From contig NZ_JARKMZ010000028.1 of NCBI RefSeq assembly GCF_029360775.1, positions 124,001 to 188,000 on the forward strand: DNA of 64,000 bases, read 5' to 3'. The position numbers and the translations under genes are program-made. Below are positions 52,978 through 57,803 of this stretch, piece by piece (within the stretch, counting starts at the first letter, position 1; each line of letters opens with the position of its first letter). The notes beneath the pieces were generated by a model. The model ran no database searches. It saw only the letters and a program-made list of their open reading frames with translations, and had not been told where the DNA came from. This stretch comes from Daejeonella sp. H1SJ63 (GTDB lineage Bacteria; Bacteroidota; Bacteroidia; Sphingobacteriales; Sphingobacteriaceae).

Positions 52978-53865
52978 TTAATGCAATGGCCTTGGTTTGA
53001 TGATACCTCCTTTGGTATCACTGATTGTGCTCATTACCACAAATGCTTTGTGGTCAATTAAGTCAACCTCCTGTTTAAGTTTTGATAGCTCCAGTCGGGT
53101 CACAACTGTGAAAATGATGTCAATATCCTTGTTCTTAAACTGCGAGTGCTCCAGTCCTCTTTCTCCTTTATAGATTGTTACACCCCTGCCAAGTTTTTGA
53201 GTAATTGCTTCGCGGATCTGTGCACTTTTTGAAGAGATGATCGTTACCCCGGTATATTCCTCAATACCCTGAATGATGAAGTCTACCGTTTTTGAAGCCG
53301 ATAAATAAGTGAGAATCGAATAAAGTGCAGTTTCAATATTCAGGATGAACGCCGCAATTATGAATATGAATACGTTGATCAGCAGGATGATATCGCCCAT
53401 GCTTAATATACTTTTCCGGTTGATGTAAACCGCCAGGATTTCTGTTCCATCAATTACACATCCTCCTCTTATAGCCAGACCAATACCGGCCCCGAGAAAA
53501 AAGCCGCCAAAAATTGAAATCAGCAATTTGTCATCTGTAATTACCGGAAAATCAATAAAAAATATAATTGCAGCAAGGGTAAGAATGGCCATTGATGTGC
53601 TTACTGCAAAACTTTTGCTGATTTGTCTGGCTCCGAGAATTATGAACGGAGCATTGAATACGATCAGCCAGACTGATACCGGGATGCCCGTTAACTGATG
53701 AGTTAACAGTGATATACCTGTGATGCCTCCGTCGATAAAATGATTTGGAACTAAAAAACCTTTCAGTCCAAATGACGCAAGGCAAATTCCTAAAAATATC
53801 AGAGCCCCTTTTCCTAAACTTTTCTTTAACAGTAATAACCTTCTTGATTTTCTCGTTGCCTTCAT
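52978..53865 (-). CDS. YitT-family membrane protein (DUF161/DUF2179)
   Basis: 295 residues from the ATG at 53865; an in-frame start 72 nt upstream is possible but would overlap the trp leader on the other strand. Five or six hydrophobic segments, the GITGISLLTHQLTGIPVSVWLIVFNAPF motif and a C-terminal DUF2179 soluble domain (about 210-290, FIIQGIEEYTGVTIIS, GRGVTIYKGERG). Function of the family is unknown, though transport is suspected. Divergent from the trp leader. Confidence 0.88.
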   Translation of the reverse strand: MKATRKSRRLLLLKKSLGKGALIFLGICLASFGLKGFLVPNHFIDGGITGISLLTHQLTGIPVSVWLIVFNAPFIILGARQISKSFAVSTSMAILTLAAIIFFIDFPVITDDKLLISIFGGFFLGAGIGLAIRGGCVIDGTEILAVYINRKSILSMGDIILLINVFIFIIAAFILNIETALYSILTYLSASKTVDFIIQGIEEYTGVTIISSKSAQIREAITQKLGRGVTIYKGERGLEHSQFKNKDIDIIFTVVTRLELSKLKQEVDLIDHKAFVVMSTISDTKGGIIKPRPLH

Positions 53866-53887: not shown

Positions 53888-53919
53888 TTTGCAGCTAAGA
53901 AAAAGTTTATCCATATTTG
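53888..53919 (+). promoter_or_regulatory. Predicted promoter of the trp leader and trpDFBA
   Basis: TTTG at 53888-53891, 20-nt spacer, CATATTTG at 53912-53919 (one mismatch to TAnnTTTG). The predicted start of transcription is about 4-5 nt before the leader-peptide ATG. Confidence 0.55.
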
Positions 53920-53927
53920 TTTAAACA

Positions 53928-54002
53928 ATGAACTCAAACAAACTATATACTATCTGGTGGTGGCAAATGTTTAAACATTCGGCAATCAGCAGAGGTATAT
54001 AA
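53928..54002 (+). CDS. trpL: TrpL-like leader peptide with three tandem Trp codons
   Basis: A 24-codon frame (ATG 53928, TAA 54000-54002) encoding MNSNKLYTIWWWQMFKHS and six more residues. The three consecutive TGG codons at 53955-53963 are the hallmark of tryptophan leader peptides. The next genes on this strand are trpD-F-B-A and an intrinsic terminator lies 29 nt after the stop. Too short for standard gene calling. A ribosome stalled at TGG would leave 53981-53987 unpaired for the antiterminator; one reaching the stop would mask it. Inference from sequence; not tested. Confidence 0.85.
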   Translation: MNSNKLYTIWWWQMFKHSAISRGI

Positions 54003-54059
54003 TTTTCAGAACATAGAAAAAAAATTACTTAGGGTTGCTCAGAAGGCAACCCTTTTTTT
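53981..54059 (+). terminator. trp attenuator: intrinsic terminator with alternative antiterminator
   Basis: Terminator: GGGTTGC (54032-54038), 7-nt loop, GCAACCC (54046-54052), then seven T (54053-54059). Competing arm: GGCAATC (53981-53987) can pair with GGTTGCT (54033-54039), including G-T pairs. This terminator has no upstream + strand gene except the leader, so its only visible role is control of trpDFBA. Confidence 0.82.
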
Positions 54060-54112
54060 GTGAAAATTATAACAGATCGTCGGGACTTTATACCGAAATG
54101 CAAAAGATACAA

Positions 54113-55099
54113 ATGAAAAATATACTTAATCACCTTTTTGAACACAAAACATTCAGTCGTGAAGAGTCTAAAGAGATTCTGACTAATATTACATTGGGGA
54201 AGTATAACTCTTCTCAGATGGCTGCATTTATGGCTGCTTATTGTATGAGAAGCATCACGGTAGAAGAGCTTGAAGGCTTTCGTGATGGTATGCTGGATCT
54301 TTGTTTAAAAGCAGAGCTTAGTGAATATGAGCTTATTGATCTTTGCGGCACCGGTGGCGATGGAAAAGATACTTTTAATATTTCTACTTTGGCTTCATTT
54401 GTAGTTGCCGGTGCCGGCTACAAAGTATCTAAACATGGCAATTACGGTGTTTCCTCCGGATGTGGTTCTTCAAACGTAATGGAGTATCTTGGGTATAATT
54501 TTACTGCTGAAAACGATAAACTGAAAAAAAGCCTGGAAGAAGCCGGAATATGCTTCTTACATGCCCCGCTCTTTCATGCTGCGATGAAAACGGTTGCCCC
54601 AATACGCAGGGAACTTGGCGTGAAGACCTTCTTTAATATGCTTGGTCCAATGGTTAATCCGGCAATGCCTAAATATCAGATGGTGGGGGTATTCAGCCTT
54701 GAGTTAGCCAGACTATATGCTTATTTATATCAGAAATCGGATACGAAATATACCATCATTCATGCTTTGGAAGGATATGATGAAATTTCATTGACCTGTG
54801 ATTTCAAAACATTCTCAGCGTCAGGTGAGCATATCCATTCCATTGCAGAGCTTGGGTTCGATAAGATTGATCCGGTAAAAATAGGAGGGGGAAGTACAGT
54901 AAAGGAATCTGCAGATATCTTTACGGCGGTACTTGAAGGAAATGGCACAACCGAACAAAACAATGTGGTTGTATGTAATGCTGCAGTTGCTATTCGCACT
55001 ATCAAACCTGAAAGATCATTTTCAGATTGTTTTTATGAGGCTGAGGAATCATTGGTAAGTAAAAAAGCCCTGAACAGCTTTAAAAAATTGCTTGCATGA
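54113..55099 (+). CDS. trpD: TrpD, anthranilate phosphoribosyltransferase
   Basis: 328 residues; transfers phosphoribose from PRPP to anthranilate. PRPP-binding GTGGDGKDTFNIST, anthranilate-site KHGNYGVSSGCGSSNVME and the RRELGVKTFFNMLGPMVNP block are complete. The ATG at 54113 fits family starts; one at 54098 is also possible, whereas an in-frame TTG at 54035 lies inside the terminator and is rejected. First structural gene behind the attenuator; its stop overlaps the trpF start by 4 nt (ATGA). Confidence 0.96.
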   Translation: MKNILNHLFEHKTFSREESKEILTNITLGKYNSSQMAAFMAAYCMRSITVEELEGFRDGMLDLCLKAELSEYELIDLCGTGGDGKDTFNISTLASFVVAGAGYKVSKHGNYGVSSGCGSSNVMEYLGYNFTAENDKLKKSLEEAGICFLHAPLFHAAMKTVAPIRRELGVKTFFNMLGPMVNPAMPKYQMVGVFSLELARLYAYLYQKSDTKYTIIHALEGYDEISLTCDFKTFSASGEHIHSIAELGFDKIDPVKIGGGSTVKESADIFTAVLEGNGTTEQNNVVVCNAAVAIRTIKPERSFSDCFYEAEESLVSKKALNSFKKLLA

Positions 55100-55740
55100 A
55101 AATAAAAGTCTGCGGTATGAGAGACAGGGAAAATATAATCAGGCTTGCTGAACTGAAGCCGGATTATATGGGACTGATTTTTTATGCTCAATCGAAACGC
55201 TATGCTAATAATCCTGATAGAGAACTTTTAGATACTCTGCCTGATACGATTAAGCTTACAGGCGTTTTTGTCAATGCAGACCTTAGTGAGATTGTTCAAA
55301 AAGTTTGCGAATATAGTCTTGATGCAGTTCAGTTGCATGGTTCTGAAAGTGCTGATTTTTGTGCCGGATTAAGGACTGCACTTGAAAAGTCAATTCCCGG
55401 GAAAAAAGTGGAATTGCTTAAGGCGTTTGGAGTATCGTCTGATTTTAACTTTGAGCTACTGATAGCTTATAATGATGTATGTGATTTTTTTCTTTTTGAT
55501 ACGAAAACAACAGAACATGGGGGCTCAGGCACGACATTTGACTGGGGCTTGCTCGCAAAATATCAGGGCTCTAAACCGTATTTTCTAAGTGGGGGATTGG
55601 GGCTGGAAAATATCTCAGGTATCAGTAAATTTGCCGGTAAATATCTTTATGGAGTAGATCTGAACAGTAGATTTGAGACTGAGCCCGGACTGAAGAACAT
55701 TGAGAGCCTTAAGCAGGCATTTAAGTTATTAAGGAATTAA
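55096..55740 (+). CDS. trpF: TrpF, phosphoribosylanthranilate isomerase
   Basis: 214-residue TIM barrel. General-base cysteine in KVCGMRD (Cys6) and general-acid Asp in [13 protein letters not shown]; phosphate-binding [12 protein letters not shown] and GVDLNSRFE present. Coupled to trpD by ATGA overlap. The usual neighbour trpC, whose product uses CdRP made by TrpF, is missing. Confidence 0.95.
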
Positions 55741-55766: not shown

Positions 55767-56975
55767 ATGAACAAGGAATATTTACAGAGTTCGATTAAAT
55801 GGGGGGTAAACGAAAAAGGCTATTTCGGTGACTTCGGAGGTGCATACATCCCTGAGATGCTATACCCGAATGTGGAAGAGTTGCGCAAGCAGTATCTTGA
55901 AATTATTTATGAAGCCGGATTTCAGGCTGAATTTCAGATGTTATTAAAAGATTATGTTGGAAGGCCCTCCCCACTATTTCATGCCGAGAGGTTATCAGCT
56001 AAATATGGAACGAATATTTATCTGAAGAGAGAAGACCTGAATCATACCGGAGCACATAAGATTAACAATACTATAGGTCAAATTCTGCTGGCAGAACGAT
56101 TGGGTAAGAAAAGGATTATTGCAGAAACCGGAGCTGGACAGCATGGTGTTGCTACTGCTACAGTATGCGCCCTTAAGGGACTGGAATGTGTAGTTTATAT
56201 GGGGGAAGTAGATATTGCCAGACAGGCACCCAATGTAGCGAGAATGAAAATGATGGGAGCAAAGGTAATTCCGGCAACATCAGGAAGCAGAACACTTAAG
56301 GATGCTACCAATGAAGCGATGAGAGACTGGATAAATAATCCTGTTGATACGCATTATATTATAGGCTCAGTGGTTGGTCCGCATCCTTATCCTGATATGG
56401 TTGCCCGGTTTCAATCGGTCATTTCAGAAGAAACCAAAAAGCAATTGCTTGAGAAAACAGGATCTGAAAATCCTGATATAGTAATGGCTTGTGTTGGCGG
56501 TGGAAGTAATGCAATGGGAATGTTCTATCATTTTCTGGATGATGAGGATGTTAAACTTATTGCTATTGAAGCTGCCGGTTTAGGTGTTAACAGCGGTGAA
56601 TCAGCGGCAACAACATCACTGGGTAAAGAGGGGGTATTGCATGGAAGCCGTTCTATTTTGATGCAAACAGAGGATGGACAGGTTATCGAGCCTTATTCCA
56701 TTTCTGCAGGACTTGATTATCCGGGAATTGGTCCGCAGCATGCCCATCTCTTCAAAGAAAACCGTGCTGATTATGTTAGCGTTACGGATGATGAAGCAAT
56801 GCAGGCCGGCAGATTATGTGCTGAACTGGAAGGGATTATTCCGGCTATTGAAAGCTCGCATGCACTTGCATATCTGGAGAAAATGGAGTTTACTGGTAAG
56901 GAAAGTGTTGTAATCTGTCTTTCAGGGCGTGGCGACAAAGATCTGGATACCTACATGAAATATTTTAATTTATAA
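55767..56975 (+). CDS. trpB: TrpB, tryptophan synthase beta chain
   Basis: 402-residue PLP enzyme joining indole and serine. PLP lysine Lys98 in [32 protein letters not shown] phosphate loop and the [21 protein letters not shown]-domain region are intact; this is the standard TrpB1 type that pairs with TrpA. 26 nt after trpF. Confidence 0.97.
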
Positions 56976-57032: not shown

Positions 57033-57803
57033 ATGAACAGACTTAATAAATTGTTTCAAAATAAACAGGAACCGCTTTTATCTCTATATTTTACAGCAGG
57101 TTACCCTGAGTTAAACAGTACTGTAGATATTGCAGAAGCAGTAGAAAAGGCGGGTGTCGATTTCATAGAAATTGGTTTTCCGTACTCTGATCCGCTTGCA
57201 GACGGACCCGTTATTCAGCACAGTTCTCAGGTTTCGCTAAAGAACGGGATGAATCTGAAAGTACTTTTTGAGCAGTTAAAGGAATTAAGAAAGAGAGTAA
57301 GTATTCCGGTTTTACTGATGGGGTATGTAAATCCTGTATTACAGTATGGTGTGAAGAATTTTTGCGATTCTTGTGCAGCAGTAGGAGTAGACGGTGTAAT
57401 TGTACCCGATCTTCCAATGTATGAGTATGAGGAGCTGTACAAAGAGAATTTTATCAGTAATAACCTGAGTAATATCTTTCTGGTTACTCCTCAGACTTCA
57501 GAAGAGCGTATTCGTAAAATAGATGAATTAAGTAACGGATTTATCTATCTGCTTTCTTCTTCTTCAACAACAGGCAAAAACCTGAAAGTTTCTGATGTGG
57601 CTGAATCGTATTTTTCCCGGATCCGGGATATGAAGCTTAAAAATCCAACAATGATTGGGTTTGGTATTTCAGATCAGGCAAGTTTTAATAAAGCTGCTGA
57701 ATATACCCGTGGAGCTATCGTGGGCAGTGCATTTGTTAAATTTCTGGGAACGGAAAATGCAATGCAGCGGATTCCTGAGTTTGTCAAGTCAATCAGACCC
57801 TGA
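57033..57803 (+). CDS. trpA: TrpA, tryptophan synthase alpha chain
   Basis: 256-residue TIM barrel cleaving indole-glycerol phosphate. Catalytic Glu46 (FIEIGFPYSDP) and Asp57 (DPLADGP) are present with the phosphate-binding IGFGIS and GAIVGSAFV segments. Last gene of trpDFBA, 57 nt after trpB. Convergent with nhaA; no clear terminator seen between them. Confidence 0.96.
   Translation: MNRLNKLFQNKQEPLLSLYFTAGYPELNSTVDIAEAVEKAGVDFIEIGFPYSDPLADGPVIQHSSQVSLKNGMNLKVLFEQLKELRKRVSIPVLLMGYVNPVLQYGVKNFCDSCAAVGVDGVIVPDLPMYEYEELYKENFISNNLSNIFLVTPQTSEERIRKIDELSNGFIYLLSSSSTTGKNLKVSDVAESYFSRIRDMKLKNPTMIGFGISDQASFNKAAEYTRGAIVGSAFVKFLGTENAMQRIPEFVKSIRP

Follow-up and report, generated by a model that had tools for sequence, protein, structure and literature searches.

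The leader that precedes trpD in Daejeonella sp. H1SJ63 is best explained, very probably, as an attenuator through which a translating ribosome controls transcription of trpDFBA. We base this reading on sequence, conservation, folding and covariation, taking as reference a stretch of 64,000 nucleotides (the window), and we infer from them ribosome stalling, termination, read-through and their tryptophan dependence. Both ribosome-mediated trp attenuation and its Bacteroidota class are already known; the interesting part is the pair of attenuators on a split pathway.

The leader ahead of trpDFBA and its predicted folding

The original prediction listed promoter-like boxes, a 24-codon ORF, a TGG run, a GGCAATC arm and a terminator followed by seven T, and each of these was found base for base. 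The region that it delimited ahead of trpD (53888-54115) has its features in place, but the likely trpD start, the ATG at 54113, lies 2 bases before that end. This start is the most likely one, as homologues open with MKxILNHLFE. From there trpD, the first regulated gene, runs on the plus strand to 55099 (TIGR01245, 298.5 bits), followed on the same strand by trpF (55096-55740), whose best match is phosphoribosylanthranilate isomerase at a score below the curated cut-off, and by trpB (55767-56975) and trpA (57033-57803), both with matches over the curated cut-off. The order trpD-F-B-A is kept in relatives. The gene adjoining the leader upstream, at 52978-53865 on the minus strand, is divergent and membrane-protein-like, gave no NCBIfam match and stands beside trpD in many near relatives. 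The genes trpE, trpG and trpC are found, in that order, on a different contig of this genome. The attenuator had been called complete, which holds for the trpDFBA locus only, since trpEGC elsewhere has an attenuator of its own. Neither TrpR nor TRAP was found when they were searched for in the window's genome.

A Bacteroidota-type promoter occupies 53888-53919 of the plus strand, with TTTG (-33) at 53888-53891, 20 nt, and then CATATTTG (-7) at 53912-53919. Among trpD leaders a YAnnTTTG followed by an in-frame ATG is present in 96 of 114, with a -33 TTTG/TTG as well in 92 of those, and the -7 motif stands 2-17 nt before the ATG in nearly all of these 96, with a single outlier at 54 nt; the same distance is 5-10 nt in 40 of 51 trpE leaders. 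The strict TAnnTTTG was discarded as the trpD-leader motif, being rare there, with CATATTTG/CATCTTTG carried instead. Because passages of PMC9723704 place TAnnTTTG at -12 to -5 relative to the transcription start, transcription in the window would begin near 53924, leaving a 5' UTR of ~4 nt before the leader ATG. The predicted start lies a few nt from the leader ATG at both the trpD and the trpE leader of this genome, which would make their transcripts nearly leaderless mRNAs. Very short 5' UTRs are the exception in this phylum: passages of PMC9723704 give a leaderless share of 5.5% in Flavobacterium psychrophilum, and 5' UTRs under 10 nt occur in about 3.7% in B. thetaiotaomicron; trpL of Sinorhizobium meliloti is a precedent (PMC7298713). 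Leader ORFs apparently set only a few nt from the 5' end of the transcript bear on how ribosomes start on them in a phylum where Shine-Dalgarno sites are scarce.

The trpL-like leader ORF (53928-54002, plus strand, as are all elements that follow) encodes 24 codons, MNSNKLYTIWWWQMFKHSAISRGI, from the ATG at 53928-53930 to the stop TAA at 54000-54002. Its putative sensor is the run of three tandem Trp codons at 53955-53963 (TGGTGGTGG, TGG TGG TGG), which is kept in relatives. This string is unremarkable by itself, occurring 3 times in the window, 2 of them within long minus-strand ORFs. The Trp codons lie in the 5' arm of hairpin 1:2 (53944-54001), the predicted pause or anti-antiterminator structure, whose core is kept in the consensus fold of 16 close relatives. 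Arm 2, the 5' arm of the antiterminator, is GGCAATC at 53981-53987, which starts 26 nt downstream of the first Trp codon, with the stop codon a further 19 nt on, and arm 3 is GGTTGCT at 54033-54039, which may serve either as partner of arm 2 or as the 5' arm of the terminator. The intrinsic terminator covers 54031-54059, with a stem of 9 bp and a loop of 5 at 54031-54053, a T run of 7 T at 54053-54059, and a core that reads GGGTTGC (54032-54038) against GCAACCC (54046-54052).

Folding calculations gave 53924-54061 a minimum free energy of -37.6 kcal/mol, against -20.8 +/- 3.1 kcal/mol for shuffled sequences (z -5.4; 0 of 200 shuffles as good). Hairpin 1:2 forms in 53928-54011 with -21.9 kcal/mol, the 2:3 helix becomes the minimum free energy structure in a transcript cut off at 54041, before the 3' arm of the terminator, with its 5' part masked, and when folding is taken from 54012 onward the terminator alone remains. 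The terminator is a strong one in itself, and 2 terminator-like sites were counted in 601 bases where 0.3 were expected. It also wins in the isolated full-length fold, and therefore the model needs a co-transcriptional order of folding.

Conservation among trpD leaders

The trpD sample comprised 121 loci, with some genomes present twice, and the nearest named relatives were Mucilaginibacter, Pedobacter and Pararcticibacter (Sphingobacteriaceae). At 114 of these loci trpD is preceded by a mini-ORF with tandem Trp codons and then by a terminator, the latter 55-79 nt away from the first of those codons. The seven loci outside the count include L056, which has only 204 bases upstream, L063, which has a leader without a called terminator, L029, with its leader further upstream, and L085, an intact operon with the leader before trpE. 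When the upstream regions of 1162 ORFs were scanned for the same combination, matches came up almost only before trpD and trpE, as judged by inspection of the list.

Both the TGG run and the pairing arms, which the original prediction proposed to follow in an alignment of relatives together with compensatory changes, proved to be conserved. The 2:3 pairing (GGCAATC/GGTTGCT) is retained in 99.1% of cells in the 16 close relatives and in 86.5% of cells in 60 leaders, compared with at most 57% and 53%, respectively, when the arms are slid. Compensatory change is clear for the terminator: it is paired in 99.4% of cells in the 60 leaders, and 18 cells show changes in both partners (0 of 500 shuffles). 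The 2:3 pairing at trpD has 3 compensatory cells in the 60 leaders, which is not significant (69 of 500 shuffles do at least as well), since its arms scarcely change; support for this helix at trpD therefore comes from conservation, position and energy. For the same reason, exchanging arm 3 between species barely weakens it, from -12.0 to -11.4 kcal/mol.

In 60 of 60 aligned trpD leaders the distance from the first Trp codon to the start of arm 2 falls within 23-29 nt. The stop codon, by contrast, may follow the start of arm 2 by up to 19 nt or precede it by up to 11 nt. Arm 2 is read in all three frames, or lies beyond the stop codon, and the leader peptide varies outside the Trp run. Since the spacing to the Trp codons is constant and the frame is variable or already past, arm 2 is kept as RNA and not as peptide.

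A second leader before trpEGC and the history of the operon

The trp operon is split into trpEGC and trpDFBA in Sphingobacteriaceae, and a second predicted attenuator precedes trpE on the minus strand of another contig of the window's genome (L004, ~9783-9640 of G000:C10). It comprises a leader, MNNKQNTGNWWCTSGEWRAVQVF, with Trp codons in the arrangement WW...W and a terminator, AACCCGACG...CGTCGGGTT, followed by a T run; this terminator differs from that of trpD. Close Trp codons were found in a leader before trpE in 58 of 61 genomes of the family, and in 51 a suitably spaced terminator was called as well. Covariation in the trpE leaders is significant for both alternative helices, with 22 cells changed on both sides in 2:3 and 25 in 3:4 (0 of 500 shuffles in each case), and the cross-species exchange of arm 3 takes the 2:3 helix from -12.3 to -10.3 kcal/mol, a greater loss than at trpD.

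Models built on the trpD leaders (R1) and on the trpE leaders (R2) each found one strong site in the window's genome, with E values of 1e-15 and 3e-13, and the remaining matches, all with E>0.1, were rejected as further copies. A candidate third trp attenuator was also set aside: in G015 an RF01692 match lies near the end of one contig and trpD near the end of its own, which we read as a contig break, a reading that is not proven. In genus g3 (L222, L223 and L226; G044, G027 and G002) all that is left of the trpE leader is Trp codons that no longer adjoin. Two of these genomes, G044 and G002, keep the trpD terminator with no recognisable Trp leader, and attenuation may be decaying in this one genus.

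Outside the family, trpE, trpG, trpD and trpC form one operon in 20 genomes of the class and in L085 (Cyclobacteriaceae), followed by trpF, trpB and trpA too where the examined DNA extends to them, and all 21 intact-operon loci have a WWW leader before trpE. The cut-off of RF01692, the Rfam model of the Bacteroid-trp RNA, is reached by 7 of the 20 such leaders from other families of the class (L188-L207), so a good share of the class escapes this model. Our family models also find the intact-operon WWW leaders of other families, with up to 58 bits for the trpD-leader model, RF01692-positive ones included, and up to 42 bits for the trpE-leader model. The simplest reading would be one attenuator before the whole operon, then the split, then two attenuators, of which the trpD copy would be closer to the original. 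We lean modestly towards a split of trpEGDCFBA within the Sphingobacteriaceae lineage by which the single attenuator became two diverged copies, with different terminators and antiterminators and the same Trp sensor; duplication rather than separate origin of the two is unproven. If this is true, the entire split pathway would still be under the control of one charged-tRNA signal. A natural case of a split operon with an attenuator on each half allows direct tests of how cis-regulation is duplicated and how a single charged tRNA coordinates two operons.

Proposed mechanism and relation to known systems

When Trp-tRNA is short, a ribosome would stall on the Trp codons (53955-53963) and hide arm 1, so that arm 2 would pair with the emerging arm 3, no terminator would form and trpDFBA would be transcribed. 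With plentiful Trp-tRNA, a ribosome at the stop codon (54000) would cover arm 2, arms 3 and 4 would pair and transcription would end at the T run. If the leader is not translated, hairpin 1:2 would form, followed by termination. With the similarly built attenuator before trpEGC, the two halves of the pathway would answer one signal. That a stalled and a finished ribosome would cover different arms follows from the positions of these elements and from a footprint size that is general knowledge. The mechanism and geometry originally proposed agree with the folding, the conserved Trp run, both alternative pairings and the constant spacing between arm 2 and the Trp codons.

A stem that is strong in itself, and that persists in genus g3 with no clear Trp leader, could also belong to a terminator that ends upstream transcription or works at a fixed level as an insulator, with the Trp-rich ORF incidental. 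Because the upstream neighbour is divergent, however, no upstream gene's transcript is there to be ended, and the Trp run is conserved at a fixed spacing from arm 2 in nearly all relatives; we regard this explanation as very unlikely. Action in trans by the leader peptide, or by the leader RNA once terminated, besides or instead of attenuation in cis, has its model in peTrpL and rnTrpL of S. meliloti, and the terminated product here would likewise be a small RNA with a mini-ORF and a very short 5' UTR, comparable to rnTrpL (PMC7298713). It is nevertheless improbable, given a peptide that varies outside the Trp run and an arm 2 conserved as RNA whatever the frame. Direct sensing of tryptophan or tRNA-Trp by a riboswitch or T-box, without a leader peptide, would account for a structured 5' region with a terminator but would leave the Trp codons unexplained. 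As zero Rfam families reach their gathering score within the window and the permissive matches include no T-box or riboswitch, such sensing is almost certainly not the answer.

The Bacteroid-trp motif mentioned in the original prediction does exist: it is Rfam RF01692, described there as "Bacteroidete tryptophan peptide leader RNA", and the class received the name Bacteroid-trp in 2010 (Weinberg et al., PMC2864571). The covariance search proposed with it was only partly favourable: the window copy matched neither RF01692, even at E<=10, nor the Trp_leader family RF00513, but RF01692 scores the position before trpD in ~50 of 121 family genomes, 6 of them over its gathering cut-off of 49 bits. 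Since this is the same trpD position, we take the window copy for a diverged syntenic relative; judged by sequence, the element is a ribosome-mediated trp attenuator related by synteny to Bacteroid-trp and not a member of RF01692. The two share a place before trpD in Sphingobacteriaceae and before trpE elsewhere, a tandem-Trp leader, a 1:2 hairpin and the 5' arm of the terminator, but the model leaves unmatched both the window copy and the trpEGC leaders (121 of 121 family genomes). The Bacteroid-trp class is thus wider than its Rfam model, which misses the window copy, close relatives and the trpE copies. No Rfam family reaches threshold at the trpE leader of the window's genome, and matches to AfaR, SpF11, STnc240 and Leu_leader at both leaders, all below gathering, were rejected as probably following the terminator or low complexity.

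By its anatomy the mechanism resembles that of E. coli trpL (RF00513), with tandem Trp codons, competing arms and a terminator, but RF00513 has no match in the window and scores 17.5 bits at the trpE leader against a cut-off of 41, and the E. coli system also differs in that no TrpR was found in the window's genome. Within the same phylum, passages on F. psychrophilum propose the same kind of regulation, with leader-peptide attenuators before amino-acid operons inferred from transcripts (PMC9723704) and a Bacteroid-trp RNA before the trp operon (PMC6414381); this species belongs to another family, and those passages do not describe a split pathway with an attenuator on each part. Nor did the literature searched, open-licence papers only and so weak evidence, yield a description of a divided trp operon bearing two attenuators in this phylum. 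The trpLE(G) system of S. meliloti (PMC7298713) resembles the present one in its split trp genes and in a transcript that begins directly, or nearly so, with the leader ORF, but of its three trp operons only trpE(G) is attenuated, whereas here both halves carry an attenuator.
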